In this document: positions 1,425 through 56,322 of the stretch, piece after piece
How the letters are laid out: the number at the start of each line of letters is the position of its first letter
Position numbering within the stretch: position 1 is the first letter of the stretch
Assembly (NCBI GenBank): GCA_002591745.1
Contig: PDLQ01000010.1
Coordinates: 1 to 64,000, forward strand
Direction: 5' to 3'
From: Lewinellaceae bacterium SD302
Lineage (GTDB): Bacteria > Bacteroidota > Bacteroidia > Chitinophagales > Saprospiraceae
Length of the DNA stretch: 64,000 bases
The notes under the pieces: generated by a model
The model's input: the letters and a program-made list of their open reading frames with translations, nothing else
Told to the model about the DNA's origin: nothing
Databases searched by the model: none
Position numbers and translations under genes: made by a program

Positions 1425-2279
1425 ATGATTCTCCTCCCTACCCGCCTTTTTCAGCAACCCACCGTCACGACCCTGCTCCGTAGCGGCAACAATTGCATCC
1501 TGGAAAAACGACTGGAGGAAAACACCGGACGCAGGGAAGGTTACCTGGCTACCCATGCCGTATCCATCGTACTGAGCGGGCGGCAGGTCATTGAATCTTA
1601 CGACGGAGACACTATTTCCATCCAACCAGGTGAGGCCATTTTGCTGAGACGCGGCTTGTATCACATTAGCGATTTCGTAACTGGCAATAATGGTTTCCAC
1701 AGCTTACTTTGCTACTTTGAAGACAACATAATCAACAAATTCCTGGCTGACCGACCAGCCGATTTCAGAAACTCCCGGGCTAGTGACTTCGTGCACCTTC
1801 CCTCCGCCGTGGAGTTGAATACTTTTGCCAGGTCTACGCTTGATCTTTATCGCCTGGGTAAGCCGAACAGACCGGCCGTTCTGCAACTCAAACAACTGGA
1901 ACTGTTACACCTTTCAAGCGATCTGCCTGGCCTGATGTCCACCCTGTGTCAATTCGTCATTCCTAAAAAACGCGGGATTCGGGACTTTATGGAAAGCAAC
2001 TACCACAAGCAACTCGGCGTCGAGGATTACGCCCGCCTCACCGGCCGCAGCACCAGTAGCTTCCGGCGAGATTTCAAAGCACACTTCGGTACAACGCCTC
2101 AGCGCTGGTTAAAGGGAAAAAGGATGGCCGCTGCCGTGGAAATTTCTCAACGAAATCAGATCAGTGTTAGTCGTCTGGCCCATCAGGTCGGATACGAGAA
2201 CGTCAGCTATTTCATCCGGGAATTCCGTGAACACACCGGCTATTCACCCAGGCAATTTATGCTACGTGAACACTCCTGA
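1425..2279 (+). CDS. AraC family transcriptional regulator
   Basis: The 284-residue protein has a C-terminal AraC/XylS double helix-turn-helix at about residues 185-282, with SFRRDFKAHFGTTPQRW in the first motif and the typical family end, VGYENVSYFIREFREHTGYSPRQF. The N-terminal half looks like the cupin-like sensor of AraC_N families (ILSGRQVIESYDGDTISI). It should bind DNA as an activator or repressor in response to an unknown ligand. One copy of the dispersed GCTACTTTG motif lies inside the gene at 1711-1719, where it encodes CYF. The downstream dehydrogenase is a possible target, only because of proximity. Confidence 0.92.
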   Translation: MILLPTRLFQQPTVTTLLRSGNNCILEKRLEENTGRREGYLATHAVSIVLSGRQVIESYDGDTISIQPGEAILLRRGLYHISDFVTGNNGFHSLLCYFEDNIINKFLADRPADFRNSRASDFVHLPSAVELNTFARSTLDLYRLGKPNRPAVLQLKQLELLHLSSDLPGLMSTLCQFVIPKKRGIRDFMESNYHKQLGVEDYARLTGRSTSSFRRDFKAHFGTTPQRWLKGKRMAAAVEISQRNQISVSRLAHQVGYENVSYFIREFREHTGYSPRQFMLREHS

Positions 2280-2357
2280 CGGCTCAGTAGCACCCCTGAC
2301 GCATTCGGACTATTTTTCGCCGCTCAGCCTTCCGACTTTTGTAGCAAAACAACAATT

Positions 2358-3233
2358 ATGTCTACAAAAATCACATTTGTCGGCCTGGGGATTATGGGCA
2401 GCCGCATGGCTAAGCACCTCATCACCGGAGGAGCCGAAGTCACCGTTTACAACCGCAGCGTTTCCGCTACCCGGCCTTTTCAGGATATGGACTGCAAAGT
2501 AGCCATGTCCGTGGATGCCGCCGTAAAAGAAGCTGATGTTGTCATCACGATGTTGGCCAATCCCGAAGCAGTAGAATCCGTCATGCTGGGAGAGAACGGC
2601 GGCCTGAAGCACATGCAAACAAATGCCCTTTGGATCGATTCTTCTACCGTCAATCCATCATTTGCGAGCCGTTCAGCAGCCGAGGCGAAGATGGCGGGCA
2701 TCCGCTTCCTGGACGCCCCCGTTGCCGGATCAAAACCCCAGGCGGAGAATAAAGAGTTGCTCTTCTTCGTAGGCGGTGAACCGGAGGAGGTAGAACAAGC
2801 CACTCCTTTCTTTAGTCTGATGGGCAAAAAGGTGCTCCACATCGGTGAAACCGGTAAAGGAGCTTCCTTCAAAATGCTGGTGAACATCATGTTGGCACAG
2901 AGTATGATCATCTTCTCCGAAGCCATTTTGCTTGGCGAAAAAATGGGCATCGACCGTGAGTTTATGCTCAACCTACTTCCCAATACCGTAGTGGCCGCTC
3001 CCTTCATAAAATTCAAAGCAGAAAGTATTCGTAAAGACGACTACGAGGTCATGTTCCCACTGGAACTCATGCACAAAGATCTCCACCTGGCCGGGCAAAC
3101 CGCTTACGAACTCGACCAACCGCTCTTTCTGGCCGGGCTGGCTGAGGACCTTTACGCCAGGGCCAAACAGGAAGGTTTGGGAAGGTTAGACTTTGCGGCG
3201 ATTCACCGTTCTCTCAAATCATCAAAACGCTAG
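2358..3233 (+). CDS. NAD(P)-dependent beta-hydroxyacid dehydrogenase, GLYR / 3-hydroxyisobutyrate dehydrogenase family
   Basis: The 291-residue protein starts with a Rossmann motif GLGIMG at residues 9-14, and NRS after the second strand (32-34) suggests NADP preference. The substrate loop DAPVAGS is at 119-125, and the catalytic Lys172 with Asn176 lies in GKGASFKMLVN. The family reduces or oxidises small beta-hydroxyacids or semialdehydes (glyoxylate, succinic semialdehyde, 3-hydroxyisobutyrate); the substrate is not decidable here. The length is normal. The gene follows the AraC gene in the same direction after 78 bases. Confidence 0.92.
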   Translation: MSTKITFVGLGIMGSRMAKHLITGGAEVTVYNRSVSATRPFQDMDCKVAMSVDAAVKEADVVITMLANPEAVESVMLGENGGLKHMQTNALWIDSSTVNPSFASRSAAEAKMAGIRFLDAPVAGSKPQAENKELLFFVGGEPEEVEQATPFFSLMGKKVLHIGETGKGASFKMLVNIMLAQSMIIFSEAILLGEKMGIDREFMLNLLPNTVVAAPFIKFKAESIRKDDYEVMFPLELMHKDLHLAGQTAYELDQPLFLAGLAEDLYARAKQEGLGRLDFAAIHRSLKSSKR

Positions 3234-3259
3234 ATCATCAGATCTAGCTGATCATTGCT

Positions 3260-4669: not shown

Positions 4670-4742
4670 TCTAGCGGGTTTTGCGAGCAAATTAAGGCTT
4701 ACGGTGCCAAATTGTTTATCTTGTCAAAAAGATTCCGGTACC

Positions 4743-5765: not shown

Positions 5766-5784
5766 CTTTCCGAACGATACGGAA

Positions 5785-7694: not shown

Positions 7695-8847
7695 ACCTGA
7701 TCTCCTGGTCCGGAACTTACTTGCCAGCGCGAGACGAGTAAATGCAGCTATCATTAGCGGGGCAACAATAGTTTGTCTGCTAATCTTTTATGGCTGCGAA
7801 GCTCCTGATACACCAGATTATCAGACAGCAAGACCAACCGTTGGCTTCTACCACTGGCAACAAACCCTTCGTCCGGACAGCTTGCCCCTCCACCTGCTGG
7901 AAGAGCCGGAGCTTTTCGTCAAGTGCTTCGACGTCACCTGGTCCGGCGGCCGTCCCGAAGCTGTTGCTCAGCTGGAGATCGAGTACAAAGACGAGGGCGC
8001 GCCCTTACCCTTTCGTATCGTACCGGTGGTCTTCATTACGAACGAAGTGATGCGCCGCGTTTCGAATGATGGCAGTATGGAATTGGCTCAAAACATCCTG
8101 CTGTTACTGGATAATCTTCTGGGCTATCAAACCTGCCCGGCCTGCCCCCAAGGAGGACGGGGTAGCAGTGCCGGTGAATCCCCACAGTCCTCCAGCTACC
8201 GCGAATTACAAATCGACTGCGACTGGACCGCAGGTTCCCGCAAAAGCTATTTCAAATTTTTGAGTGACCTGAAAAGCCTGCTTCCGGAAGAAGTGACCCT
8301 GAGCGTGACCGTTCGCCTCCATCAGTTTCGGGACCGGAAAGCACAAGGTATTCCCCCTGCGGACCGTGGGAGCCTGATGGTCTACAACGTCGGTGACCTG
8401 AACCGCTGGGAAACGGAGAATAGCATCATCGACAGTAACATCACTACCAATTACCTCACCAATGCCGGCCAGGGTGAATATCCTTTAGCCTTGGACCTCG
8501 CCTTGCCACTGTACCAGTGGGGGGCCGTTTACCGCCAAGGAAAGCTGGCCTATTTAATCGATGAGTTGGGAGTGGACGATCTGTCCGATAGCCTTCGCTT
8601 TGAATCCCTCAATCAGCACCGCTACTTTGTTAGCCAAAAGACTTATCTGGACGGCTATTTGCTCTATTCCGGAGACAACATACGCCTGGAATCCAGCCCG
8701 TACGGAACGCTATCTGCCGTTGCAAAACAATTATCCATCGTCCCTTCATTTGAGGAGCAGCGCTTACTCTTTTACCGCATCGGCAGCGAGTTGTCGGAAA
8801 CTACCAGTGCCTCTAAACTGCGTAATTTAAGCCACTCGATCAGGTAG
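7675..8847 (+). CDS. putative lipoprotein of unknown function (TIM-barrel-like)
   Basis: The open frame starts at a GTG (7675) overlapping the end of the nuclease gene, so translation may be coupled; a TTG at 7684 is an alternative. Arg-rich residues precede a hydrophobic stretch ending in the lipobox FYGC (Cys41), giving an outer- or inner-membrane lipoprotein of about 350 residues. The segment LQIDCDWT followed by SLMVYNVGDLNRW hints at a glycosidase-like beta/alpha barrel of the DUF3142 type, by eye only. A GCTACTTTG motif with its full tail lies inside the gene at 8621-8640. Confidence 0.7.
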   Translation: MKVLTSKPDLLVRNLLASARRVNAAIISGATIVCLLIFYGCEAPDTPDYQTARPTVGFYHWQQTLRPDSLPLHLLEEPELFVKCFDVTWSGGRPEAVAQLEIEYKDEGAPLPFRIVPVVFITNEVMRRVSNDGSMELAQNILLLLDNLLGYQTCPACPQGGRGSSAGESPQSSSYRELQIDCDWTAGSRKSYFKFLSDLKSLLPEEVTLSVTVRLHQFRDRKAQGIPPADRGSLMVYNVGDLNRWETENSIIDSNITTNYLTNAGQGEYPLALDLALPLYQWGAVYRQGKLAYLIDELGVDDLSDSLRFESLNQHRYFVSQKTYLDGYLLYSGDNIRLESSPYGTLSAVAKQLSIVPSFEEQRLLFYRIGSELSETTSASKLRNLSHSIR

Positions 8848-11727: not shown

Positions 11728-11886
11728 CATTGCTACTTTGTTAGTCAAAATACGCTGGATACCAGATCGCCTCGCTGTTAGACAATGGACTACAGATAAC
11801 TGAAGGTTAGCTGTCCGGACGAGGCACACGCTAGAGGAGCAGTCTAATAGCGAAGCGGTCTAGTTTTCCTGGCAAAGTAGCAATGC
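11728..11886. repeat. inverted-repeat element bounded by the CATTGCTACTTTG motif
   Basis: The left end carries CATTGCTACTTTG at 11728-11740 and continues with TTAGTCAAAATA; the right end carries the same 13-mer in inverse orientation (11873-11885). Inside, AGATCGCCTCGCTGTTAGAC at 11764-11783 pairs with 11842-11861 (17 of 20). The word AGACCGCTTCGCT shared with the element at 54.1 kb indicates one family. It fills most of the gap before the next gene. Confidence 0.7.
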
Positions 11887-16055: not shown

Positions 16056-17069
16056 CTAGAATCGTACGTTCACCAAGCCGCAAAGGTCTTTCACTTCTTT
16101 GATTGTTTCCTGGGCTCGCTTACGAATTTCAAAGCTACTGGCCTTGATCTGATTCTTAACTGCCTTGCGATCCGACTTCAATTCGGCCAGGCGTTCGCGG
16201 ATGCCCGTGCTGATGTCTACCAGCCCTGTCGCCACTTCTTCTTTAAGGTCACTGTAACGCAGGCTGCCCTGCTCGTAATCCTGTAGAAGTGAAGTATAGG
16301 CTTCCTGTCGGCCGCTGGCTTCCAGCAACTTGAACAGATTCGTTACTCCGGGGCTCATTACACCGGCCACTTGCTCACCGGTATCGGTAACGGCGCTCCT
16401 GATCTGTTTACGGATCACTTTTTCGTCGGCGAACACGTCGATGTTGTGCTTGTCGCCCAGACTGGCACTCATCTTCCGCATTGGATCGGCGGTACTCATC
16501 ACCTTAGGGACTTTAGTATAAAGTGACTCAGGTAATTCAAAGTACTCTTTACCGGCAAAGTTATTGAAGCGCTGGGCAATGTTGCGGGTCAGTTCCAGGT
16601 GCTGTTCCTGATCTTTACCTACCGGTACCAGCGTAGCCTTGTAGATCAGAATGTCGGCTGCCTGCAAAGAAGGATAAGTAAGCAAACCGGAAGAAATGAA
16701 ACCTTGGTCCCCCATTTCATCATTCCGGCTACTCTTGTCTTTGAACTGGGTCATCCGGCTAAGTTGGCCGTAACTGGTAAAGCACCCCAGTATCCAGCCC
16801 AGTTCCGTATGCTCCGGCACCAGACTTTGGATAAAGATATTCTCTGGCTTTATTCCACAAGCTAACAAGTTGAAGACCAATTCCCATGAATTTTCCGCCA
16901 GCTTTTTAGCGGTAAACGGCATAGTCATAGCGTGGTAATTCACGACCATATACAGGCAGTCGTATTCTTCCTGCAAACGTTTCCAGTTTTCTACCGCCCC
17001 GAAATAACGTCCGAAATGCAGTTTCCCAGTGGGTTGAATTCCCGAAAGAATGGTCTTTTGTTGGCTCAT
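16056..17069 (-). CDS. trpS: tryptophanyl-tRNA synthetase
   Basis: The 337-residue class I synthetase has the HIGH-type motif PTGKLHFGRY at residues 13-22 and the KMSKS-type loop MRKMSAS at about 197-203. A Rossmann core and the C-terminal helical anticodon domain (DLKEEVATGLVDIST region) complete the family length. It charges tRNA-Trp in the cytoplasm. The candidate sRNA terminator lies just beyond its stop, in the opposite orientation. Confidence 0.96.
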   Translation of the reverse strand: MSQQKTILSGIQPTGKLHFGRYFGAVENWKRLQEEYDCLYMVVNYHAMTMPFTAKKLAENSWELVFNLLACGIKPENIFIQSLVPEHTELGWILGCFTSYGQLSRMTQFKDKSSRNDEMGDQGFISSGLLTYPSLQAADILIYKATLVPVGKDQEQHLELTRNIAQRFNNFAGKEYFELPESLYTKVPKVMSTADPMRKMSASLGDKHNIDVFADEKVIRKQIRSAVTDTGEQVAGVMSPGVTNLFKLLEASGRQEAYTSLLQDYEQGSLRYSDLKEEVATGLVDISTGIRERLAELKSDRKAVKNQIKASSFEIRKRAQETIKEVKDLCGLVNVRF

Positions 17070-17121: not shown

Positions 17122-17169
17122 CCTTGCTACTTTGCTAGTCAAAATATTTATGGCTTCAACGTAGCAGGG
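17122..17169. repeat. short inverted pair of GCTACTTTG-type motifs
   Basis: CCTTGCTACTTTGCTAGTCAAAAT starts at about 17123 and is followed at 17152-17169 by the inverse copy GGCTTCAACGTAGCAGGG, which has one changed core base. The two can form a hairpin in the gap between trpS and the oxidoreductase. A tandem of TTAGTTGAT words lies just to the left (17091-17118). Confidence 0.6.
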
Positions 17170-17262: not shown

Positions 17263-18240
17263 TCATTCCCCCGGATAACGAATCCCGGCCAACTCACGAA
17301 TCTTCGTTAGGGTTCTGTGCAAGATCAGGCTATCGTCCAGGCTCCAAAGCGCGTTTTCTGTACGTCCGGCGCGAACGTCGGCCATCACAGCTTTGGCTTC
17401 GTAGTTGTAGCCGTTAGCGTTGCGTTCGAAAAAATAATTTTCCGGAGAGTCGTCCTCCCGCAGAATGCTGAAGTTGCTCGGCTCGTGGAAGCGGGTATGC
17501 CAGTGCAGATCCGCTTTGGTCCCGTGGATGAGGGCTTCGGTTTTGGTACGGCCGTAGAGGGTGGAAAAGGCGTGGCCCAGTTTCCCTTCCCTATTCCGCA
17601 GGCTGACGTGAATTTCCCGGTCGATGCCATTCTCATCCAGTCTGGCGGACACGGTAATCTCTTCCGGCTCGCCCAAGAGTAACTGATTCAGCCAAATCGG
17701 GTAAATACCAATATCGAGCAAACTACCGCCCCCCAGGGCGGGATCGAAGAGCCTTTTGGCTGCGCCCGGCCCGGCCCGGAAACCGAAATCAGCCCTTAGC
17801 CCTTCGATCTCTCCGATCGTTCCGGCTTCGATCAACTCCAACACTTTTGCCGTAGTGGGGGTGAATCTGCTCCACAAGGCCTCCATTAAAAAGACTTGCT
17901 TTTCCCTCGCTAAACCGACCATCTCCTCTACCTGGGTATAATTCAGGCCCAACGGTTTTTCACAGAGTACAGCTACTCCATTTTCCAGGCACAGCTCTAC
18001 CAGTTCCAGGTGACTAACGTGGGGGGTTGCCACGTAGACGGCATCGACCCTGGGTCCATTGAATAATGCTTCATAGCTGCCCGCCGCATATTCAGTCCCA
18101 AAATCAGCGGCGAAAGCGGTGGCTCTTTCCTGGCTCCGGCTACCTACGGCCACCAGCTTGGCATCTTCAATTGTTTTTAAGTCTTCGGCGAATTTTCGGG
18201 CAATCTTGCCCAGGCCCAGGATACCCCAGTGGAAAATCAT
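17263..18240 (-). CDS. Gfo/Idh/MocA family oxidoreductase
   Basis: The 325-residue protein has an N-terminal NAD(P)-binding Rossmann domain (GILGLGKIARKFAED, residues 6-20), the CEKPLGLN motif at about 93-100 whose Lys is catalytic in the family, and a C-terminal alpha/beta domain with the typical SLLDIGIYP segment. Relatives oxidise sugars, inositols or trans-dihydrodiols; the closest look is the dihydrodiol-dehydrogenase-like group. The substrate is not known. Confidence 0.92.
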   Translation of the reverse strand: MIFHWGILGLGKIARKFAEDLKTIEDAKLVAVGSRSQERATAFAADFGTEYAAGSYEALFNGPRVDAVYVATPHVSHLELVELCLENGVAVLCEKPLGLNYTQVEEMVGLAREKQVFLMEALWSRFTPTTAKVLELIEAGTIGEIEGLRADFGFRAGPGAAKRLFDPALGGGSLLDIGIYPIWLNQLLLGEPEEITVSARLDENGIDREIHVSLRNREGKLGHAFSTLYGRTKTEALIHGTKADLHWHTRFHEPSNFSILREDDSPENYFFERNANGYNYEAKAVMADVRAGRTENALWSLDDSLILHRTLTKIRELAGIRYPGE

Positions 18241-22160: not shown

Positions 22161-22353
22161 GGGATGATCGGTTTAAAGACGGGTGAATAGTTGCAGCAAC
22201 AAATGTACTTCATTCTTGGTTGAGTGAAATAACCGGCTAGTTATCCCGAAATCGGTACCTTTCCAAAAACAAACGGGAAGAATAGACTCGCCACTGGTCT
22301 AGCCTAAATCACCTTTAATCGAAAACCTTGCTACTTTGTTAGCCACCCTTACC

Positions 22354-24603: not shown

Positions 24604-25524
24604 TTGGATTCTATCAACAAAACCCACGTCGACAACATTCTTTTGCAGGGCCAGACTGGCGAAGCCATCAAGATGCTGTTGGCACTTTATCAAGCCAACA
24701 GCCCTACTGAATACGATAATATCGTCCTGCAATCTGCCCGCTGGCACGGTTTGCAAAGAGATCGGCAGAGTGGCGTCATCAGTTTTGACAATGCACAGAT
24801 GATGACGGCTCAGATCAATTCGGTCCTCCGGCATTTCGCCAGCAAGATCGAGCGGGACTGGACGGCGGAGTATGATTTGCAGTCAATACCGCAAACTCCT
24901 TCGCCTACGCCCGTTAAACCTGAACCTGAACCTGAACCTGAACCGATAGCCAAGAAAAAAGTCATTCTCTGCCTAAGTGCCAACCCGACGAATTCAGATC
25001 GTTTGGCTACAGATATTGAGATTCGGGAGATCAAGGACAGCGTGCGCAACTCTAAAGGAAGAGATAATTTTGAGGTCATTTACGAATCTGCCATTACGAT
25101 CAAAGCATTTAGGCGGGCGGTTTTAGACAACGAACCACACATCATTCATTTCTCCGGTCATGGCACCGCCGAAGGTGAGATCATTCTGCACAACAATGCT
25201 AATAAGGGCCAGAAAGTTAGCGTACAAGCACTGGCTGATTTCTTCGAATTAATTTCGGATGTCGCCCCTTTGGAATGTGTTATCCTGAATGCTTGCTATT
25301 CAGAAGTTCAAGCTAAGGCCATTGCCAAATCTGTGGACTACGTAATGGGGATGAATAATGCGGTACCGGACAAAGTAGCTATTGGCTTCGCCCATACAGT
25401 TTACCAGGTACTTGCTAATGGTCGTGACTATGAAACGGCTTACAAATTCGCGCGTAATAATATTGCCATGGAAGGACACTCTGGACAGGACCTACCCATC
25501 TTAATCAAGCGGGAAAGTATTTAA
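24604..25524 (+). CDS. EAD-like / CHAT-domain cysteine protease
   Basis: With the TTG start at 24604 the protein has 306 residues; the open frame continues to a TTG at 24550 inside the palindrome, and no ATG is available. The N-terminal ~85 residues (INKTHVDNILLQGQTGEAI to LRHFASKIERDW) resemble a small effector-associated domain of the EAD11 type. A Pro-Glu repeat linker follows, encoded by a tandem CCTGAA hexamer. The C-terminal CHAT (caspase-like) domain has the catalytic His186 in FSGHG and Cys231 in LNACYS. CHAT proteases act in bacterial conflict and death systems. It is tail-to-tail with a caspase-lipase gene, their stops overlapping. A GCTACTTTG motif lies inside at 25371-25379. Confidence 0.85.
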   Translation: MDSINKTHVDNILLQGQTGEAIKMLLALYQANSPTEYDNIVLQSARWHGLQRDRQSGVISFDNAQMMTAQINSVLRHFASKIERDWTAEYDLQSIPQTPSPTPVKPEPEPEPEPIAKKKVILCLSANPTNSDRLATDIEIREIKDSVRNSKGRDNFEVIYESAITIKAFRRAVLDNEPHIIHFSGHGTAEGEIILHNNANKGQKVSVQALADFFELISDVAPLECVILNACYSEVQAKAIAKSVDYVMGMNNAVPDKVAIGFAHTVYQVLANGRDYETAYKFARNNIAMEGHSGQDLPILIKRESI

Positions 25525-29550: not shown

Positions 29551-29958
29551 TTATACCAAATCCTTGTCTTTCCAGAGTGGATCGTAATCTTCCCCCGGCT
29601 CACTACCGTTACCACGCTGATCGTTGCCGGGCAGAATGCTGTCTTCCACCGGGTGACGGTTGAGTATCCAGTCGAACCAGTCGTCGCTCAGCCAACCTTT
29701 ACCACCGGGAAGACCGCGGAGTTTGATGTATTTGACGGCCAGGAAAATGCCCCACCAGAAACCAACCATCCGGAAGATTTCAAAGAAATCATTGTCCAAT
29801 AAAACACCGGCACTGAAAAGTACTAGTAAAGAGATCAGGTAAGCGCGAAGACTTTTATAAAACTTAGCCTTCGGGGAGATGATACGCTCACAACGGAAAC
29901 GTCGCCGGCCATTGCGGCGTCGGCGGCGAGATGAGGCATTGCTACTTTGATAGTCCAT
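29551..29958 (-). CDS. 2TM domain protein (135 aa)
   Basis: It has the same layout as its neighbour: basic start (SSRRRRRNGRRRF), KAKFYKSLRAY before helix one (about 37-55) and MVGFWWGIFLAVKYIKLRG as helix two (about 68-85), then a polar tail. The two genes look like a tandem duplication that has diverged. The ATG at 29958 lies inside an inverse copy of the GCTACTTTG motif, so the motif codes for residues 4-6 (QSS). Confidence 0.78.
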   Translation of the reverse strand: MDYQSSNASSRRRRRNGRRRFRCERIISPKAKFYKSLRAYLISLLVLFSAGVLLDNDFFEIFRMVGFWWGIFLAVKYIKLRGLPGGKGWLSDDWFDWILNRHPVEDSILPGNDQRGNGSEPGEDYDPLWKDKDLV

Positions 29959-32766: not shown

Positions 32767-32872
32767 AACGCGGGCTTCTTAGTATGGTTATCAAAGTAGC
32801 ATTGTTTGAAATAATCAGGGAAATTCCTGCCGTACCCTGACCAAGTGCTGGTGAAATTAAGGGGCCACTACT

Positions 32873-36058: not shown

Positions 36059-36181
36059 CATTGCTACTTTGAAGTCTAAAAGGACGCGTGGCATCAGGTT
36101 CAGGGTACCGCGCACTCACTCAAGGTACCCGGCCCTTCATTCTTTGTAACTGTTTTTACTTATGACTTCAAAATAGCAGTG
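36059..36181. repeat. inverted pair of GCTACTTTG-type motifs
   Basis: CATTGCTACTTTGAAGTC at 36059-36076 is followed by the inverse copy GACTTCAAAATAGCAGTG at 36165-36182, complementary at 16 of 18 positions. Inside lies a second pair, GGGTACC and GGTACCC near 36103 and 36123. The element sits between two minus-strand genes. Confidence 0.65.
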
Positions 36182-38083: not shown

Positions 38084-39697
38084 ATGGGAAAACACCAATA
38101 CTCCACTATAGTTACCGGCTTACCCGCTTATTCCGGCGAATGGTCCTACGCCCAGGCCGCCCACCTACTACGGCGTACAACTTTCGGGCCGACAAAGACC
38201 GCAATTTTAGCCGCCGCCGGTCAAGGTATGGCTGCCAGTGTGGCCGCCTTATTAGCCAACCAGCTGCCACCAGAACCACCGCTGAACCCGGGCGTTACCG
38301 AAGACCCCTTCGTAGCCGTTGGAGAAAGTTGGGTGGATGCACCAGTAGACGAGCAGGGTACACTCAATAACTACCGCGTGCAAAGCTTCCGCAGCTGGAT
38401 CTTTCAGCAGGCGATGACGGACGAGACGATCAAGGAAAAGATGGTGCTGTTCTGGCAAAATCACTTCGGGCTCACCTTTAATGGAAACGCCAGGGTTCGA
38501 TATATGTGGAACAGCCTACTGCGGGAATTCGCCACCGGAAATTTTCGGGAACTCGTTAAACAGGTGACTGTTCATCCGGCAATGCTGGTTTTCTTAAATG
38601 GCACCCAGAGTTCGGCTAATTCGCCCAATGAGAATTACGGCCGTGAATTACTGGAACTCTATACTATCGGCAAAGGCCCGCAGATTGCAGAGGGAGATTA
38701 CAGCAACTACACCGAAGATGACGTACGTGCCCTCACCCGTGCCCTCACCGGCTGGCGCATCGAGAATATCAACCCCCAGGCGCCGGGTCTGACGCCAGGC
38801 AGTTTCTTTCAGTCGAATCGTCACGATACCGGTGATAAAGTGCTTAGCTATCACTTCAACAACCAGGTGATTCAGGATGCTCAGGAAGACGAGTACAAAA
38901 ATGTAGTCGATATCCTGCTCAATGAGCTGGAAACGGCCCGCTATATGGTCCGGGAGTTTTATCGCTACTTTGTTTACTACGACATTTCCGATCAGGAAGA
39001 AACCGAGGTGATCGAGCCGCTGGCCCAGTTTTTCTACGACAGTGACTACGACGTAGCTGCCACCCTGGAAAACCTGTTCAGCAGTCAGCATTTTTACGAC
39101 ATACTGAACCGTGGGCCCCTCATCAAGGACCCCATGAACTACATCATGAGTATTGTACGTCCCTTTGGTTTCGACCACGTTACGGACGCTACCCTGGCAA
39201 GCGATTATCTATTCTATCAACGGCTATACGCCAGAGTCCTGGATGCCGGTATGGACTACCTTTCTCCTCCCACGGTCTCCGGCTGGGAAGCCTGGTACCA
39301 GGCACCATCCTACCACCGCAACTGGATCAATGCCTCTACCCTGCAGCAGCGAACCCGTAACACCGATCAGTTCACCGACATCGGGCTTAACGGCGGCGGC
39401 GGCGTGCGCTACAGTATCGACTTTGTCGGTTGGATCGCCAATCTGGAAAACCCTTTCGATCCGAACACGCTGATTGAAGAGATCACCAGGATTCTGCTTC
39501 CTCAACCATTGGTACAGGAGCAACTGGACGCACTAAAGGACTTTCTGATCCCCGGTCTCCCCGATTTTGAGTGGACCGACGAGTACGGTGCCTACCTCTC
39601 CGACCCGACCAATAATATGCTGTTCACCAGCGTCGAAAACAAACTCAAAGACCTCTTCCGCGCCATCTTCGGCCTGGCCGAATTTCATTTATCCTAA
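38084..39697 (+). CDS. DUF1800 domain protein
   Basis: From the ATG at 38084 the protein has 537 residues and the DUF1800 signature AAHLLRRTTFGP at about 20-31. It has HWQNHFGLTF-like and WWYNHF-like positions (LFWQNHF near 121-127) and NYGRELLELYTIG. DUF1800 proteins are almost always paired with a DUF1501 protein, as here, 12 bases downstream. The pair is thought to act on the cell surface or in the periplasm; the activity is unknown. A GCTACTTTG match at 38964 encodes RYF and may be coincidental. Confidence 0.88.
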   Translation: MGKHQYSTIVTGLPAYSGEWSYAQAAHLLRRTTFGPTKTAILAAAGQGMAASVAALLANQLPPEPPLNPGVTEDPFVAVGESWVDAPVDEQGTLNNYRVQSFRSWIFQQAMTDETIKEKMVLFWQNHFGLTFNGNARVRYMWNSLLREFATGNFRELVKQVTVHPAMLVFLNGTQSSANSPNENYGRELLELYTIGKGPQIAEGDYSNYTEDDVRALTRALTGWRIENINPQAPGLTPGSFFQSNRHDTGDKVLSYHFNNQVIQDAQEDEYKNVVDILLNELETARYMVREFYRYFVYYDISDQEETEVIEPLAQFFYDSDYDVAATLENLFSSQHFYDILNRGPLIKDPMNYIMSIVRPFGFDHVTDATLASDYLFYQRLYARVLDAGMDYLSPPTVSGWEAWYQAPSYHRNWINASTLQQRTRNTDQFTDIGLNGGGGVRYSIDFVGWIANLENPFDPNTLIEEITRILLPQPLVQEQLDALKDFLIPGLPDFEWTDEYGAYLSDPTNNMLFTSVENKLKDLFRAIFGLAEFHLS

Positions 39698-41339: not shown

Positions 41340-41348
41340 CAAAGTAGC
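41340..41348 (-). promoter_or_regulatory. GCTACTTTG motif copy within a local palindrome
   Basis: On the minus strand CACTGCTACTTTGCTAGTAGCA forms a perfect 7-bp hairpin (TGCTACT / AGTAGCA). The copy lies between the DUF1501 stop and the HAD gene, and it is the clearest self-pairing copy of the dispersed motif. Confidence 0.5.
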
Positions 41349-42933: not shown

Positions 42934-43096
42934 CAGTCGGGAGTCAGTTAGTCAGTCAGTCAGGAGTCGGGAGTCAGTCAGTCGGGAGTCGGGAGTCAGT
43001 CGGGATATTTCGATTGAAGGCTTCTCCCCGACTCCCGACTCCCGACTCCCGACTCCCGACTCCCGACTCCCGACTCCCGACTCCCGACTCCCGACT
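42934..43096. repeat. large palindrome of 7-bp CCCGACT tandem repeats
   Basis: The right arm (43027-43096) is exactly ten copies of CCCGACT. The left arm (42934-43014) is made of complementary AGTCGGG and AGTC units in irregular order, separated by a ~12-base spacer (ATATTTCGATTG). The result is a potential ~160-base hairpin between cdaA and the next gene. Tandem 7-mers should expand or contract readily. A plus-strand open frame running through it is an artefact. Confidence 0.85.
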
Positions 43097-43155: not shown

Positions 43156-44304
43156 ATGCAAAAGTTGCTCCTGTTTCTCTGCCTGCTTTGCTACTTTGAA
43201 GCCACCCTGATCGCCCAAGTGGTGAGAACGCATACCGATGGTTCAAAGATCATCGTTTACCCCGACGGATCGGCCGTCTACTTTAATGACAAAAAGCCCG
43301 TGCCGGATTACCAGCAGGGCGACTACCCCATCCTGGCCGTAAAGATCGAGCCACTTTCCTCAGCAGTAAATGTGACGGAAACAGACCTCAAGCAAATTGC
43401 CGACCGGAAACTCCAATTGGCCAGAGAAGCAGCTACATTGGCAACCGAAAGGGCCGCAGCTGCCCGAGAAAACCGACAACGACTTGAACAACGCCTGGTA
43501 AACGCTAAATCCGGCATCGGCAGCCAGAATGCGGGCAACCTGCAACGGCAGGTCCACCTGGCCCGGCGGATTGAAACTGAAAGCCTGGAAGAAAGCCGTA
43601 AGGCTAATGTGCAAATGCAGCAAGCCGAGAACGTGATCCGCCAGAATCGCTACGTAGAGGCCTATAATGAGTCGCGGCGCCAACGAAGGGCCAGTTCCGT
43701 GCGCGGGGCGGAAAGACGGGAAAGCCTCCCTCAGGCAAGACGCCTATTCAGTGCCTACAATGCCAGTTTTACGGGTTACGGTGCACCGGTTACCCAAGGT
43801 AAACAACTGCCGAGCAGTCCCTGTACCCTGGCGCACGAAGGCAAAGACCCCAAGACGGGGCAGTACATACGTGCCTCGAAATCCGAATTATTTTTCACTC
43901 ATACTGACGAGAGCCTGCGCCCCTACCTGGAGGGTAAGGAGTACCTCACTGCCGAGGCTTTCGTACACAGCCGAGCCGGCTATCGTTACCTGACGATAAA
44001 GCTGACCTTCGCCAATCCGAACGCGATGCAGACCTACGGTTACCTGCCCGAAGGCAGCATCCTGAGTATGCACCTGCTGGACGGTAACTTTCTGAACTTG
44101 CGTTCTGCTCAGGACGCCAACGGCAGTTGGGACGACAGTAAAAAGGAACTGAGCTATACGGTCACCTACCCCATCGACCGCTCCATGATCGGGACCTTAC
44201 GACAAAGTGAGTTGAACTACGTCCAGCTATTTTGGTCAAGCGGCTTCGAGGAGTACGACATCTACCAGGTAGATGTGTTGCAGCGGTTGTTTGATTGTTT
44301 GTAA
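43156..44304 (+). CDS. secreted coiled-coil protein of unknown function
   Basis: A signal peptide (about 1-20) overlaps a GCTACTTTG motif that encodes CYF. Residues about 25-45 are a YPDGSAVYF-type segment, residues 80-185 are Ala/Arg/Glu/Gln-rich and predicted coiled coil, and the C-terminal ~170 residues are mixed alpha/beta (GYRYLTIKLTF, GSILSMHLLDG). No sorting domain or family was recognised. TAATTTTA near 43121 is a weak -7 box. Confidence 0.75.
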   Translation: MQKLLLFLCLLCYFEATLIAQVVRTHTDGSKIIVYPDGSAVYFNDKKPVPDYQQGDYPILAVKIEPLSSAVNVTETDLKQIADRKLQLAREAATLATERAAAARENRQRLEQRLVNAKSGIGSQNAGNLQRQVHLARRIETESLEESRKANVQMQQAENVIRQNRYVEAYNESRRQRRASSVRGAERRESLPQARRLFSAYNASFTGYGAPVTQGKQLPSSPCTLAHEGKDPKTGQYIRASKSELFFTHTDESLRPYLEGKEYLTAEAFVHSRAGYRYLTIKLTFANPNAMQTYGYLPEGSILSMHLLDGNFLNLRSAQDANGSWDDSKKELSYTVTYPIDRSMIGTLRQSELNYVQLFWSSGFEEYDIYQVDVLQRLFDCL

Positions 44305-47918: not shown

Positions 47919-48124
47919 CAAAGTAGCAATATCCTCAGCTCGTCGGCCGAGGCGGACGTTTATGGCTTGACTTGTCCGCCGAGCAAAGCTCTCTTCAATT
48001 AGATCCTCGTAACGAAACCATTGCCGCTGTATTCTTTGGAAGCATTCATCCCTATAATTGAATCGGAAAAAGTCCGCTCGGCCGACGAGTCATGTCCTTC
48101 GGTCCGCCTCGGCGGACGAGCTCG
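47919..48124. repeat. repeat-rich gap: GCTACTTTG copy plus CTCGT...CGGAC elements
   Basis: After the motif copy at 47919-47927 come two stretches of the CTCGT-GGCCGAGGCGGAC family (47938-47960 and, inverted, 48072-48124). The second matches 17214-17261. Together they can pair into long hairpins. No gene is visible between the metalloprotease promoter region and the tRNA. Confidence 0.6.
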
Positions 48125-48895: not shown

Positions 48896-50752
48896 ATGCC
48901 TGCTATCTACCGCAAACCGCTTTATTCCAGCATGGCTACTTTGCTAGGAATAGCCTTTCTTTTTACCAGTGGATCACTTTACGCACAGGAATTTGTCAAC
49001 CCGCTGATCGTTCCACCGCTCATCGAAGCTGATAATACCGATTATCACATTATCGCCAGGGAAACTTTCCACAACTTCAATCCACTCGGCTCGGATTCAC
49101 TCAATACTGAAGTACCGGCCTTTGCTTTCGTGGATGCCGACAACCCGACGGCCAACACGATTTTGGGTCCTACGATCTCCTGGGATTACTTATCGGAACT
49201 GACCCCTACGGTAACAAATGACCTTAATGAGAGAACGACCTGTCACTGGCATGGTGCCCACGTACCACAGTACGCCGATGGTGGTCCTCATCAGATCATC
49301 GAAGCTGGTGAAGATTGGAATATTTCCTTTCCGGTACTGGACAAATCCGCAACCATGTGGTACCATCCTCACGCTATGGGGCTGACCTACGAACACGTGC
49401 AGATGGGGCTTTCCGGCATGCTTTACGTTGAAGACCCCACTGATGATCCCGTATTATCGTTTATCCACGACATTTTGCCCAATGAATACGGTGTGGATGA
49501 CATTCCACTGATCGTGCAAACAAAAAAATTCATGCGGGATAGTGGCCAGATCGTTATCCAAGCCGAAAAGGGATTTAAAGACCACTATTACTACATGGTT
49601 AATGGCCACGTCGATCCTGTACTCCAGGTTCCGGCCGATATGGTACGATTACGCGTGCTGAACGGGGATGGCAAGTTCTCTTTCAACTTCGGCCTGTCCT
49701 CCGATCCTCAAGGTCAACAGCCAAACGACTATCAACTTATTGCTACCGATGCCGGTTACACAACCCGGTCTTTCACCATGGAAACACTATTGATGGCTCC
49801 GGGTGAACGGACCGAATGGCTCGTGGACCTGCGCGGCCGGGAGGGTGATGTGCTTTACCTTTACAATTATGTTTCCAATATTCCCGATGGTGTCATCGGC
49901 AATTCTTCCACTACTGGTGGTTACGCCCAAAATCGGCCCCTGCTGAAAATTGAGATCGGCCCCAGTACCCAACCGCCCAGCCCGATCATTGCTTTCCCGA
50001 TCAATCTATACAACGACCCCGACCGCCCGACTCTGGACCAGGTGAGCAATACTCGTACAAAAGAATTTCGCCAGGATACTTTTATCATGGACGGCGATAC
50101 GATGAACCTCTTCAACATCGATAGTACGCTGATGAATATGATGGTCGTCAACGACGTAGTTATGCTAGACAGCACCGAAATCTGGACCATCAACAACACT
50201 ACCGGCATTGCCCACCCCTGGCACATTCACGACATCCATTTCTGGGTGACCGAAATTCTGGAAAACGGGGCCCCGTTGAGTCCCTCCGCTTACCCTGAGA
50301 TATTCGGCGGCCCGAAAGACAATGTTCTGGTGCGGCCGGGTTGGGAACTCAGCTATATCGCCACCTTCGATGATTACGGCACCGATATACAGTTTAACAA
50401 CAGCTACATGTACCACTGTCATATCCTTCCCCATGAGGACCGGGGCATGATGGGGCAATTCGTTGTATGGGATGGTGAAAACCCCTCCTCCAACGAAGAG
50501 CCGGGTGAAATCAGTCGCGACATGACTCTTTACCCCAACCCGACCAGCGGTGACGTGTATCTGGAAGGAGCAAGTACCGAAACCAGTACCATTCAGGTTT
50601 TTAATGCCAATGGCAGTCTGATCCGTTTATTGCAGCTCCCCCCTTTTGAGGGAGTAATGCAGCTTGAATTATCCGGCCTGCAAAAAGGCATCCTCATCCT
50701 GGATTGGCGCAGTGCCGAGGGCAGGGCCGTCAAACGAGTAGTTACTCAATAG
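48896..50752 (+). CDS. multicopper oxidase with T9SS sorting domain
   Basis: The ATG at 48896 gives 618 residues; the open frame continues further upstream without a plausible start. A signal peptide precedes the mature part. Copper-binding motifs are CHWHGAHVPQ, WYHPHAMG, HPWHIHDIHFW and the late YHCHILPHEDRGMMG, which provide type 1 and type 2/3 sites as in CotA-like laccases and bilirubin oxidases. The last ~75 residues (LYPNPTSGDVY onward) are a T9SS sorting domain. A GCTACTTTG motif overlaps the signal peptide (48935-48943). Confidence 0.93.
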   Translation: MPAIYRKPLYSSMATLLGIAFLFTSGSLYAQEFVNPLIVPPLIEADNTDYHIIARETFHNFNPLGSDSLNTEVPAFAFVDADNPTANTILGPTISWDYLSELTPTVTNDLNERTTCHWHGAHVPQYADGGPHQIIEAGEDWNISFPVLDKSATMWYHPHAMGLTYEHVQMGLSGMLYVEDPTDDPVLSFIHDILPNEYGVDDIPLIVQTKKFMRDSGQIVIQAEKGFKDHYYYMVNGHVDPVLQVPADMVRLRVLNGDGKFSFNFGLSSDPQGQQPNDYQLIATDAGYTTRSFTMETLLMAPGERTEWLVDLRGREGDVLYLYNYVSNIPDGVIGNSSTTGGYAQNRPLLKIEIGPSTQPPSPIIAFPINLYNDPDRPTLDQVSNTRTKEFRQDTFIMDGDTMNLFNIDSTLMNMMVVNDVVMLDSTEIWTINNTTGIAHPWHIHDIHFWVTEILENGAPLSPSAYPEIFGGPKDNVLVRPGWELSYIATFDDYGTDIQFNNSYMYHCHILPHEDRGMMGQFVVWDGENPSSNEEPGEISRDMTLYPNPTSGDVYLEGASTETSTIQVFNANGSLIRLLQLPPFEGVMQLELSGLQKGILILDWRSAEGRAVKRVVTQ

Positions 50753-54097: not shown

Positions 54098-54317
54098 ACA
54101 TTGCTACTTTGCCAGTCAAAATTAAGACCGCTCCTGTCGTCGCTGTTAGAAAATAGACGCTAGACCGCTTCGCTGTTAGGCTGCCGGTTTGGTGCGCCCG
54201 GCGTCCAGCATCTAATATCCACCGCCTGGTATCTAGTGTCTAGCTTCTAGCGTCTGGTTTCCATCGATCAAACAGCGACGACAGGAGCGGTCTCTCATGA
54301 CTAACAAAGTAGCAATG
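54098..54317. repeat. ~220-bp inverted-repeat element bounded by CATTGCTACTTTG motifs
   Basis: Left end: ACATTGCTACTTTGCCAGTC at 54099. Right end: the inverse motif at 54305-54317. Inside, GACCGCTCCTGTCGTCGCTG (54126 on) continues as a 22-bp perfect pair with 54271-54292. The centre carries TCTAGTGTCTAGC-type tandem words and AGACCGCTTCGCTGTTAG, shared with the element at 11.7 kb. The kdsA start overlaps its right end. Confidence 0.8.
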
Positions 54318-54320
54318 CCC

Positions 54321-55139
54321 ATGAATACACTCTCCCGAATCCCCCGGATCAAACATACCGAGACCAACAATTTCTTCCTCATTGCCGGGCCCTGCGCCAT
54401 TGAGGGGGAGGAAATCGCTATGGAGATCGCCGAAAAAGTGAGTGCCATTTGCGACCGGCTGAAGATCCCCTATATCTTCAAAGGCAGCTACCGCAAAGCC
54501 AACCGCAGTCGGCTGGACAGTTTCACCGGTATCGGCGACGAGAAGGCCCTGAAAATCTTGCGTAAGGTTGGAGAAACCTTTGACCTGCCTACGACCACCG
54601 ACATTCACGCCGTAGCCGAAGCCGCCCTGGCCGCCGAGTACGTGGACGTACTACAAATTCCCGCGTTTTTGTGTCGCCAGACCGATTTACTAGTAGCCGC
54701 CGCCAAAACCGGAAAAGTGGTCAACGTCAAAAAGGGACAGTTTCTGAGCCCCAGTTCCATGGCATTCGCCCGCCAAAAGGTGATCGACAGCGGCAACGAT
54801 CAGGTTTGGCTCACCGAACGCGGCACCACTTTCGGCTATACGGATCTGGTAGTGGACTTCCGCGGCCTGGCCACCATGCGTGAACTGGGCAGCCCGGTGG
54901 TGATGGACTGCACCCACAGTCTCCAACAGCCCAACCAGAACAGCGGCGTCACAGGTGGCCGCCCCGCCCTGATCGAAACCATTGCCAAAGCGGCCATCGC
55001 CGTGGGGGCGGACGGGCTCTTCATGGAGACCCATCCTAATCCCAGCGTAGCGAAGAGTGATGCGGCGAATATGCTGCCTTTGGATCAACTGGAGGGCTTG
55101 CTGGAGCGGCTGTTGAGGGTTCGGGAGGCGGTGGTTTAA
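54321..55139 (+). CDS. kdsA: 3-deoxy-8-phosphooctulonate (Kdo-8-P) synthase
   Basis: The 272-residue protein from the ATG at 54321 has the KdsA core: NNFFLIAGPCAIEGEE, FKGSYRKANRSRLDSFTG and the late DCTHSLQQPN with HPNPSVAKSD. It condenses arabinose-5-phosphate with PEP to make Kdo-8-P for LPS. An ATG at 54297 is also in frame, but its codons lie in the inverted-repeat end, and the shorter start matches the family length. Confidence 0.95.
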   Translation: MNTLSRIPRIKHTETNNFFLIAGPCAIEGEEIAMEIAEKVSAICDRLKIPYIFKGSYRKANRSRLDSFTGIGDEKALKILRKVGETFDLPTTTDIHAVAEAALAAEYVDVLQIPAFLCRQTDLLVAAAKTGKVVNVKKGQFLSPSSMAFARQKVIDSGNDQVWLTERGTTFGYTDLVVDFRGLATMRELGSPVVMDCTHSLQQPNQNSGVTGGRPALIETIAKAAIAVGADGLFMETHPNPSVAKSDAANMLPLDQLEGLLERLLRVREAVV

Positions 55140-55184
55140 ATCCGGCATTTTAAAAATCCAATGACTGATTCTCTCGCCCCTTTG

Positions 55185-55192
55185 TATCTTCG
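55185..55192 (+). promoter_or_regulatory. candidate -7 box of the cytochrome gene
   Basis: TATCTTCG lies 14 bases before the GTG start at 55207. The same TTGTATCTTCG word precedes the HAD gene at 41.4 kb. Confidence 0.35.
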
Positions 55193-55206
55193 CAAAAATC
55201 TCACCC

Positions 55207-56229
55207 GTGCAAAGATATCTGCCATACCTCCTCGCCCTCGCCACACTTGGCTACCTCACTTTGGCCACCAGTCCTGCCCCGGAAGGTCACCTTACCGTAG
55301 CTGATGAGCAAGCCCTGCTACAGCAGGTCTTTCAATCCCTCGGTCAACCCCAACGAGGCGACAACGTGGCCCGCCCCGTAGACGGTGCCTCTGCCGAATT
55401 GGGCGAAAAAATCATCTTGGAAGGATTAGGCATCAACGGCAAACGCCAGAGCAAGCATTTCGTCTGTACCAGCTGCCATAATGTGGTGAAGGAAGACCCC
55501 AACCTTCTGAAAGCCGACCCTGAGGCCCGGCTCGATTATGCCATAAAAAACGACCTTCCCTTTCTGGCTGGCACTACGCTTTACGGGGCGGTGAACCGGA
55601 CGAGTTATTACAACGGAGACTACGAAAAAAAATACGGTGATCTGGTTAAACCCGCCCGTAAAGACCTACGCGCCGCTATCCAACTCTGCGCCACGGAGTG
55701 CGCCCAGGGTGAACCACTTAGCGCTGCGGAAATGGAAAGTGTGGTCGGCTATTTACAGCAAATCGGCCTCAAGATGGGGGACCTCGACCTGTCCGATGAC
55801 GAATTTACGCGCGTTAACGATGCTCTCGCAGAAGGAGATAAGGACCAGTCAGTAATCAACCTGCTGAAAGGCAAGTTTCTCCCCTACTCTCCCGCCACCT
55901 TCGTATTGCCGCCGGAAGACCGCAAAACCGGTTACCCCGTAAAGGGGGATGCCGCCATCGGAGCCGAACTTTACGATCGCAGCTGCCTCCACTGCCACGA
56001 AAACCAACGCTACAGCTTCTATAATCTGAACCATAACCCGGACAGCTACGAGCATCTGCTCAAGCATTTTTCCCGCTACACCCGCTACTCTACCTATCAG
56101 GTTAGTCGCTACGGTACTAGTCCCATTCCCGGTAAGAAAGCTTATATGCCTCACTACACTGAGGAGCGAATGAGCAACCGCCAGATCGAAAGTTTGCGGG
56201 ATTTCCTGAACGAAGCATTAAGTAAATGA
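55207..56229 (+). CDS. diheme c-type cytochrome
   Basis: The start is a GTG at 55207. A hydrophobic N-terminus (residues 5-22) should direct export. Two heme attachment sites are present, CTSCH at 87-91 and CLHCH at 260-264, so the two domains are each a cytochrome c. A Cys-rich bit in between (LCATEC) does not fit CxxCH. The protein could donate electrons to an oxidase or a sulphur-oxidation-type enzyme; the partner is unknown. Confidence 0.88.
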   Translation: MQRYLPYLLALATLGYLTLATSPAPEGHLTVADEQALLQQVFQSLGQPQRGDNVARPVDGASAELGEKIILEGLGINGKRQSKHFVCTSCHNVVKEDPNLLKADPEARLDYAIKNDLPFLAGTTLYGAVNRTSYYNGDYEKKYGDLVKPARKDLRAAIQLCATECAQGEPLSAAEMESVVGYLQQIGLKMGDLDLSDDEFTRVNDALAEGDKDQSVINLLKGKFLPYSPATFVLPPEDRKTGYPVKGDAAIGAELYDRSCLHCHENQRYSFYNLNHNPDSYEHLLKHFSRYTRYSTYQVSRYGTSPIPGKKAYMPHYTEERMSNRQIESLRDFLNEALSK

Positions 56230-56305
56230 TCTATTGAGTTAATGATTGAATGATCCAATATTGCCCATTCTACCATTAAATCACTGCCTCGTTAAATCAT
56301 TATTT
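56226..56305. repeat. palindrome of AATGAT words
   Basis: The left arm (about 56226-56259) carries AATGATC and AATGATTG words, the right arm (about 56271-56305) the complements (TTAAATCACTG, TTAAATCATTATT). It fills the gap before the 481-residue protein. The next gene's ATG directly follows a GCTACTTTG motif in inverse orientation (56313-56321). Confidence 0.55.
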
Positions 56306-56322
56306 GGACTAACAAAGTAGCC

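Follow-up and report, generated by a model that had tools for sequence, protein, structure and literature searches.

Two proteobacterial families, both of them users of type IV pili, are known to employ genome-wide words by which cells recognize their own DNA, and the known uptake-sequence systems depend on these pili. The DUS of Neisseriaceae occur in hundreds to thousands of copies within and between genes, form dialects of one core that follow the species (Frye 2013, PMC3630211) and measure up to ~13 bp (PMC12616744). The USS of Pasteurellaceae combine a 9-bp core with an A/T-rich 3′ tail (eHin-USS; PMC12616744), form inverted pairs and are also present in a temperate phage (HP1). Uptake of USS by Haemophilus influenzae is reported to be independent of orientation (PMC1939737), and their even spacing was reported by one study but doubted by the paper citing it (PMC1939737). 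In 109 pairs of USS the two members are no more than 14 bp apart; such pairs are described as terminators in most cases (PMC7811141). The motif described here shares the high copy number, the location inside and between genes and the species-following dialects of DUS, as well as the 9-bp core, tail, inverted pairs and phage copies of USS, but it comes from a different phylum.

The stretch analysed (the window) comprises 64,000 nt of the genome of Lewinellaceae bacterium SD302 (G000; other G-numbers denote genomes of relatives), a marine bacterium of the genus Neolewinella. It contains 21 exact copies of GCTACTTTG, 11 on the plus and 10 on the minus strand, against a shuffle expectation of 0.42 and a maximum of two in 100 shuffles. 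A preliminary description had listed about 20 copies with a strand ratio of 11:9; all 20 coordinates are correct and the near balance stands, but a minus-strand copy at 2495 was missed. The whole genome contains 1,533 copies, i.e. one per 3.6 kb, compared with 80 (43 forward and 37 reverse) for the reversed control word; a count near expectation, the first outcome that the preliminary description had named as fatal to its idea, is thus not what is observed. The 770 forward and 763 reverse copies of the over-represented exact core are as evenly divided as one would expect of an uptake sequence. In 1.264 Mb of the genome, 367 copies face 11.7 expected under an order-2 Markov model. The core is strict, with one-mismatch variants showing just a mild excess (363 observed versus ~288 expected), i.e. 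fewer variants than drive combined with ordinary decay might leave. An alignment of 135 copies from 464 kb bears out the previously noticed conserved tail, with the consensus n-n-R-G-Y-C-A-A-A-A and a variant one base shorter, and further reveals a conserved C-A-Y-T upstream of the core. The full motif, A-R-C-A-Y-T-GCTACTTTG-n-n-R-G-Y-C-A-A-A-A, thus extends over ~24 bp and is longer than DUS. Its core is non-palindromic, and the information declines gradually outward without any sharp element boundary.

Gene calls made with a simple caller of our own place 10 of the 21 window copies between genes. Three inverted pairs between or at genes, as had been proposed, are indeed present: 11732-11740 (+) with 11873-11881 (-), both intergenic; 22118-22126 (-), situated 24 nt into the called gene 19629-22145 (-), with the intergenic 22330-22338 (+); and the intergenic 54103-54111 (+) with 54305-54313 (-), the latter lying antisense 12 nt into a DAHP synthase-like gene, 54297-55139 (+). 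The other copies between genes are 17126-17134 (+), flanked by genes 16056-17069 (-) and 17263-18240 (-), 32792-32800 (-), 36063-36071 (+) and 47919-47927 (-), both with the short-spacer tail (AAGYC), 41340-41348 (-), and 56313-56321 (-), between genes 55261-56229 (+) and 56323-57768 (+). Inside genes, sense copies are found at 1711-1719 (+) in gene 1425-2279 (+), at 26349-26357 (-) in gene 25521-28892 (-), and near the starts of genes 43156-44304 (+) and 48896-50752 (+), at 43190-43198 (+) and 48935-48943 (+), respectively. Antisense copies occupy 2495-2503 (-), the one absent from the earlier list, within gene 2394-3233 (+), 25371-25379 (-) within gene 24604-25524 (+), and 29941-29949 (+) near the start of gene 29551-29958 (-). 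Two further in-gene copies can be aligned without gaps to homologues in relatives: 8621-8629 (+) in gene 7882-8847 (+), where the G016 homologue (44% identity) has RYRV in place of RYFV, and 38964-38972 (+) in gene 38084-39697 (+), where RYFV is shared with the G012 homologue (41% identity). The CATT extension, giving CATTGCTACTTTG, is present in seven copies, the number stated in the preliminary description, namely those starting at 11732, 11873, 26349, 29941, 36063, 54103 and 54305.

The claim that it is the DNA and not the protein that is subject to selection or drive holds at a larger scale: coding sequence contains 173 copies, whereas 60 synonymous-codon shuffles yield a mean of 20.3 and a maximum of 28. 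The other 194 of the 367 copies lie between genes, a space enriched for the motif. A mobile short repeat (a MITE, or REP with a RAYT transposase) would account for the between-gene enrichment as well as for the high copy number, the species-specific sequence and the frequent inverted pairs, the last three being features in which the motif recalls REP/REPIN elements, and gaps of either kind are indeed more frequent near in-gene copies than expected (7 of 25 versus 3.7). However, in 18 of the 25 in-gene copies that can be aligned to a homologue the nearest 6 residues are free of gaps, and in four the relative has the gap, as an insertion in G000 would produce, against 2.4 expected. Moreover, the dialect letters described below change in place, and the core, unlike REP/REPIN, is not palindromic and fades out gradually instead of ending as an insertion would. 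The alignments, in which protein identity is 35% at the motif and 52% overall, indicate that the in-gene copies probably arose by substitution and not by insertion; transposon ends as their source, which the preliminary description had named as a possible undoing of its idea, thus find no support, and the mobile-repeat explanation appears very improbable. We also considered and rejected terminator hairpins, since 49 of the 58 pairs closer than 400 bp are separated by at least 50 bp, unlike the close pairs of USS, and convergent regions contain just 17 of the 194 between-gene copies.

A promoter element deserves mention, as the Bacteroidota -7 box is TAnnTTTG and the motif contains the similar TACTTTG. 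In the 150 bp preceding gene starts, copies pointing the same way as the gene indeed prevail (80:42), a lean that DNA uptake does not predict and that counts against it. Between tandem genes, however, co- and anti-oriented copies are nearly even (63:52), 173 of the 367 copies lie inside genes, and the word GCACCTGCG of sister dialects does not resemble a -7 box; a role in promoters is hardly credible as the primary function and would at most be a secondary co-option.

None of the 119 related genomes among the 120 searched is enriched for GCTACTTTG comparably to G000, yet species of the same genus bear other dialects of the same word, as expected for a clade-wide signal. TGCACCTGCG occurs 1,193 times in G005, 1,134 times in G014 and 1,098 times in G002 (controls 4, 2 and 7, respectively); GCACCCGCG with its tail occurs 480 times in G019 (control 3), and GCTCCCGCG with its tail 191 times in G004 (control 0), 48 times in G017 and no more than 8 times in any of the remaining 19 genomes. 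G009, which matches Neolewinella maritima, carries TGCACCTGCG 252 times and GCACCCGCG with its tail 124 times. The dialects of four species were read from k-mers in 115-138 kb and those of another four in 120-140 kb; for G001, k-mers from 140 kb are the sole source. In the sister dialects the tail is G+C-rich, unlike that of USS. GCTACTTTG and TGCACCTGCG, the two words searched in other genera, are not enriched there. Orthologous in-gene sites carry GCTCCCGCG and GCACCCGCG in G004 and G016, and GCACCTGCG and GCACCCGCG in G017 and G012, respectively, and at both sites the core differs by the dialect letter alone; judging from such alignments, dialects appear to have changed in place at two to three sites overall. 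There is turnover of sites as well: for at least two of those bearing a tail, the partner species in the alignment shows no corresponding site.

The spacing of the motif sets it apart from known uptake sequences. Copies in G000 are evenly spread (in 126 windows of 10 kb, the variance/mean is 0.46), with a per-strand coefficient of variation of gaps of 0.57-0.58, and pairs closer than 3 kb are predominantly inverted, with a ratio of same to opposite orientation of 47:170 in G000 and 10:59 in relatives with two other dialects, pooled. Same-orientation copies thus exclude each other, while the two strands look independent; the copies at 25371 and 26349 in the window, equally oriented and 978 bp apart, are an exception. 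At 10-20 kb the ratio is 481:490 in G000, i.e. there is no local strand bias. The shape of the exclusion is roughly reproduced by a toy model in which saturation is strand-specific and fragments measure 4-6 kb, although this model underexcludes at 0.5-1 kb (0.19-0.33 versus 0.14 observed), whereas an orientation-blind model does not reproduce it. The spacing suggests polarity of reading, and the reading would be strand-selective, with a length of roughly 4 kb. Here the proposed uptake-like behaviour needs amending, as the exclusion acts over ~3 kb among same-orientation copies and not among opposite ones, a pattern by which the motif departs from DUS, and from USS as well, the uptake of which ignores orientation according to the literature cited above. 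No earlier description of such a strand-wise footprint was found in the passages of the literature consulted. One-directional packaging or uptake starting from the motif, as by a capsid, was rejected, since it predicts unequal numbers of -+ and +- neighbours and these are about even (85:68) among G000 neighbour pairs closer than 3 kb. In relatives, pairs closer than 1 kb show a weak residual asymmetry (22:7).

Polar reading is also what a Chi-like site or self-marker would entail, where a polar helicase-nuclease, either AddAB/RecBCD-like or part of a defence system, would digest DNA up to the first motif on the strand being read, and each strand would therefore need one copy every few kilobases. 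The motif matches the Chi of RecBCD/AddAB in being non-palindromic and frequent and, to judge by its spacing, probably in being polar, and the loss of redundant copies on each strand, compatible with recognition in one polarity, the density of one copy per few kilobases and the strict core all fit. Known Chi sites, however, are strand-skewed and 5-8 bp long, whereas the present motif shows no local strand skew and covers ~24 bp, including a tail, with a spacer that varies by 1 nt; AddAB is widespread, yet the known words show enrichment in just one genus and differ between sister species; and copies are enriched between genes. We consider this explanation rather unlikely, though it is the main rival of the reading proposed below.

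Phages bear on the question as well. Phage contigs carry the GCACCTGCG dialect, and in one phage alignment 18 nt are intact within 326 columns at 67% identity. Of 32 stretches considered for phage density, eight were dropped by eye (L274, L276, L282, L283, L293, L300, L302 and L305), and the remaining 24 are redundant and were each chosen for holding a copy, so the density is biased upward. Occurrences of the GCTACTTTG dialect in 12 viral stretches were set aside as mostly chance matches, 11 of them having a G+C content of 0.35-0.41. The phage copies speak for an uptake signal, with the USS of phage HP1 as a parallel, but their presence and strict conservation would also suit a Chi-like site, which phages would bear as protection. 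Phage HP1, the sole H. influenzae control for strand-wise exclusion, contains 17 USS against 3 controls, and its USS pairs within 1 kb (four in the same and one in opposite orientation) do not follow the G000 pattern. If the motif were instead bound by a nucleoid or condensin-like protein that organizes the chromosome, directional assembly would cause the same-orientation exclusion, and the very even, chromosome-wide spacing and the between-gene enrichment would be explained. Such a function is nevertheless improbable, considering that the same sites occur in phages, that fast dialect change at up to ~1,200 sites would be hard without drive and that the two words searched in other genera are not enriched there.

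We searched the Neolewinella genomes for the machinery on which known uptake sequences depend. Profile searches with the secretin family PF00263 gave no match in any of the 21 genomes, and those with the ATPase family PF00437 gave matches of only ~20-25 bits in 20 genomes and none in the remaining one. The best match in G000, at the cut-off of 24.9 bits, covers positions 139-221 of 370 in a frame of 946 residues and is read as probably belonging to another P-loop ATPase, not to a convincing pilus or secretion ATPase. The type IV pilus/type II secretion machinery (ATPase plus secretin) was thus not found in these 21 genomes, in contrast to the bearers of DUS, and uptake through type IV pili was rejected. 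A minor-pilin receptor of the ComP type is unlikely because a convincing assembly ATPase is missing, and no candidate receptor for the motif was found. ComEC is encoded in G000 and all 20 other members of the genus, as well as in 16 of 19 genomes outside it, and being so widespread it explains nothing specific. In the search for a genus-specific partner, the ten proteins inspected at this locus, ComEC included, are housekeeping-like where they match Pfam, and two have no match. The route would be pilus-independent, perhaps via ComEC.

Weighing all this, we give a chance of about one in two to the reading that GCTACTTTG is the species dialect of a genus-wide, pilus-free signal for uptake or recombination of self DNA, read strand by strand. 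The motif with its flanks would favour the exchange of homologous DNA within the species, much as uptake sequences do in Neisseriaceae and Pasteurellaceae. Conspecific fragments of a few kilobases may be taken up or retained when the read strand has the motif in the right polarity; on recombination, motif-bearing donor alleles would spread and motif-less ones lose. The benefit would saturate at one copy per strand within a fragment, so that redundant same-strand copies would decay while those on the two strands remain independent. Drift in the specificity of the reader, followed by the full set of sites, would give rise to dialects. We infer DNA uptake or transfer as the underlying process. 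The analogy with uptake sequences drawn in the preliminary description is hence the best-supported reading, but identity with DUS or USS is not established, and one of their defining features, the pilus or secretion machinery, was not found in the 21 genomes. No data on uptake or transformation in Neolewinella were met among the titles and abstract openings surveyed.

We tentatively suggest, with somewhat less confidence than in that reading itself, a new mechanistic type: a sequence-specific, strand-selective and pilus-independent system, with signals evenly spaced at ~4 kb on each strand, phages included, and with rapid drift of the reader having split the genus into genetic dialects. As far as the literature searches show, Bacteroidota would thereby gain their first known example. 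If true, it would be a third independent case of such words, in a lineage without recognizable pilus machinery, and would show that they have evolved more than once and by another route. The strand-wise spacing offers a quantitative clue (polarity, ~4 kb) to the reading machine and can be searched for in any genome, and the several dialects within one genus provide a natural test of molecular drive versus selection.

The core 9-mer GCTACTTTG occurs 21 times in the window (11 copies on the plus strand and 10 on the minus), against a mean of 0.42 and a maximum of 2 in 100 dinucleotide shuffles; the 20 copies counted by eye in the preliminary description were all correctly located, and a single one, at 2495 on the minus strand, had been overlooked. 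The over-representation, which a whole-genome count had been proposed to check, indeed extends to the entire SD302 assembly (5,478,864 bases, 147 contigs), with 770 forward and 763 reverse copies as compared with 43 and 37 for the same pattern read backwards, employed here as a control. A 1.264 Mb sample of the genome, window included, contains 367 copies where an order-2 Markov model predicts 11.7, and 173 of them fall in coding sequence (mean 20.3, maximum 28 in 60 synonymous-codon shuffles). The 27 one-mismatch variants of the core are mildly in excess in the same sample (363 in total versus a summed Markov expectation of about 288, the biggest excess of any variant being 24 versus 5.8), so the core is strictly kept. 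The logo built from 135 copies in 464 kb reads A-R-C-A-Y-T-GCTACTTTG-n-n-R-G-Y-C-A-A-A-A, with a second form of the tail shorter by one base; positions near -14 and -20 are weakly T-rich, and the motif is non-palindromic and lacks sharp element ends.

Enrichment of GCTACTTTG comparable to that in SD302 (19 times the control) was found in none of 20 other genomes of the same genus, Neolewinella (class Saprospiria), and 99 genomes of the family or order. Modest excesses over the reversed control occur outside the genus in G037 (228:118, the highest count outside SD302), G092 (127:27), G050 (114:27) and G102 (50:6, the highest ratio). Counting k-mers de novo in stretches from the same genus revealed a second dispersed word, TGCACCTGCG, with whole-genome counts of 1,193 in G005 (control 4), 1,134 in G014 (2) and 1,098 in G002 (7). 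It reaches at least 3.6 times the control in 19 of the 20 species, being modest in G004 (61 versus 15) and G016 (84 versus 23); the counts are 28 versus 15 in G001 and 11 versus 11 in SD302, and the top count outside the genus is 43 versus 0 (G065). The logo of this sister dialect is Y-C-Y-Y-T-GCACCTGCG-g-C-C-g-C-G-C-C-c, again with spacing variants of the tail. K-mers from four more species hinted at further dialects, two of which were then counted in the whole genomes of the genus: GCACCCGCGnCCnCGCC is found 480 times in G019 (control 3), 204 times in G011 and 181 times in G016, among others, and GCTCCCGCGnCCnCGCC 191 times in G004, 48 times in G017 and at most eight times in each of the other 19 genomes (controls 0–2). 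Several species harbour more than one word form, and the dialects share the skeleton GC-n-n-C-Y-n-n-G plus tail. That dialect letters can change in place follows from orthologous sites: GCTCCCGCG in G004 corresponds, ungapped, to GCACCCGCG in G016 in a coding sequence, a single core letter differing, and GCACCTGCG in G017 corresponds to GCACCCGCG in G012. A third site (L127 3589 / L130 1122) exhibits the G004/G016 letter change with a gap adjacent. Sites also turn over, as at least two tail-bearing ones (L127 2750, L129 379) lack a counterpart in the partner species.

Homologue alignments with at least 35% identity covered the motif site for 25 of the 173 in-gene copies. Eighteen of these have no gap within six residues of the motif; a gap in the relative, a sign of insertion in SD302, accompanies four (2.4 expected from control positions), and gaps of either kind seven (3.7 expected). 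As the alignments are mostly ungapped and protein identity is lowered at the motif (35% versus 52% overall), substitution seems to be the main source of copies, with the protein apparently bearing some cost.

Gene positions were derived from our own simple gene caller (872 genes in 1.264 Mb). Intergenic copies make up 194 of the 367, though DNA between genes represents only about 13% of bases; 62 lie in divergent and 17 in convergent regions, and gaps between tandem genes contain 63 co-oriented and 52 anti-oriented copies. Copies lying at most 150 bp upstream of a called start are co-oriented in 80 cases and anti-oriented in 42. Copies are evenly spread (mean 2.90, variance 1.33 per 10 kb in 126 windows), independently of G+C content. 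The longest motif-free stretch in the 1.264 Mb is C60:29234-54846 (L097-L098; 25.6 kb), with mostly co-directional genes. Another copy-free stretch, of 8.5 kb and 45% G+C, takes up the end of the window (56313-64000) and runs on to contig position 64,833. It includes a gene of the S24-peptidase/repressor-like kind as well as several open frames that match no Pfam family, and it may be recently acquired DNA. At 42935-43096 the window also has a heptamer array that could form a large hairpin immediately upstream of the gene at 43156: repeats of AGTCGGG come first, and then the reverse complement CCCGACT, perfectly repeated ten times (43027-43096).

Copies of the word exclude each other strand-wise. 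Pairs less than 3 kb apart in SD302 comprise 47 in the same and 170 in opposite orientation (p ~1e-17). Those in the same orientation fall to 0.07 of expectation at 0-0.5 kb, 0.14 at 0.5-1 kb, 0.29 at 1-2 kb and 0.45 at 2-3 kb, and recover to about 0.7-0.9 beyond 3 kb. Opposite pairs stay near expectation throughout but are in excess below 500 bp, which fits clustering of copies between genes. Gaps on one strand are regular (CV 0.57-0.58; 0.65-1.00 in the smaller samples from relatives). The same pattern emerges in relatives with other dialects, with ten same versus 59 opposite pairs below 3 kb when 100 places from G014, 50 from G005 and 70 from G019 are pooled among the matches listed, and in an additional set of 116 copies from other contigs (545 kb, five species), with 14:48 below 4 kb and 74:61 at 4-10 kb. 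Inverted pairs below 1 kb in G019, G014 and G005 show a weak arrangement bias: among the matches listed, pooled over the three, 22 run minus-then-plus and seven plus-then-minus. The exclusion implies that a copy loses its benefit to a same-strand copy within a few kilobases but keeps it beside one on the opposite strand. A birth-death toy model, where a copy brings no benefit if its fragment bears another on the same strand, roughly reproduces the shape of the pair spacing with fragments of about 4-6 kb, the exclusion at 0.5-1 kb being weaker than observed, and an orientation-blind version excludes both kinds of pairs; this agreement is a consistency check, not proof. A polar nuclease requiring the word, as with Chi, would give identical strand-wise spacing, yet we regard this main rival explanation as the less likely one given the length of the motif, the existence of dialects and the lack of any local strand bias of the chromosome, manifested by 481 same and 490 opposite pairs at 10-20 kb in SD302.

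Phage contigs also carry a dialect of the word. Searching viral contigs for TGCACCTGCGnCCGCGCCC gave 32 stretches, several of which, of middle G+C content, are mutually related; proteins of tailed phages are encoded by L280 (terminase and head protease) and L290 (tape measure). L280, L275, L288, L290 and their relatives are tailed-phage contigs with the GCACCTGCG dialect, some 94-100% alike across samples, and they likely represent phages of Neolewinella-type hosts. At two L280 sites the motif is retained in contigs 88-100% alike, and L288 preserves all 18 nt of it within a 326-column alignment at 67% identity. Such copies would also be compatible with a Chi-like nuclease. Phage HP1 of Haemophilus influenzae, with 17 USS versus three reversed words, offers a parallel for a phage bearing the word of its competent host; unlike the exclusion described here, its USS pairs within 1 kb are four same and one opposite, a very small sample.

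As for uptake machinery, ComEC (PF03772) is encoded by SD302 and all 20 other Neolewinella genomes, and by 16 of 19 outside the genus; genes neighbouring comEC, where examined, gave no lead. Secretin (PF00263) was detected in none of the 21 Neolewinella genomes and in two of the 19 others searched, with matches in G077 and G082 (G035 was outside this search). Matches to PF00437 (the PilB/PilT/GspE/VirB11 family) reach only about 20-25 bits in Neolewinella, the sole strong PilB/GspE-type ATPase matches in 73 genomes, above 400 bits, being those in G035, G077 and G082. The best SD302 match, in a 946-residue frame, attains the family's 24.9-bit cut-off; as it spans only positions 139-221 of 370, we read it as another P-loop ATPase. 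One motif copy (C60:200424) lies within a gene (C60:199581-200801) whose protein resembles ComEA by eye: it has a hydrophobic segment at its N-terminus and several repeats of the helix-hairpin-helix-like kind.

The literature searched (titles and abstract openings, with subscription journals and preprints mostly outside its range) mentions no such motif in Neolewinella or Bacteroidota. The nearest case in the latter is Riemerella columbina, for which the part of the report consulted describes a preference for own DNA and, as putative uptake words, A- and T-rich k-mers only (PMC7965970). The word is genus-wide, strict and non-inserted, and it shifts with species; a drifting reader that drags its sites along would account best for this. 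In our opinion the best explanation is a bias towards self DNA in uptake or recombination, as with DUS and USS, with a probability of roughly 0.5. The specificity of the reader would then drift with the motif sites following it, and import or processing, judging from the strand-wise exclusion, may be strand-selective and act on fragments of about 4 kb.
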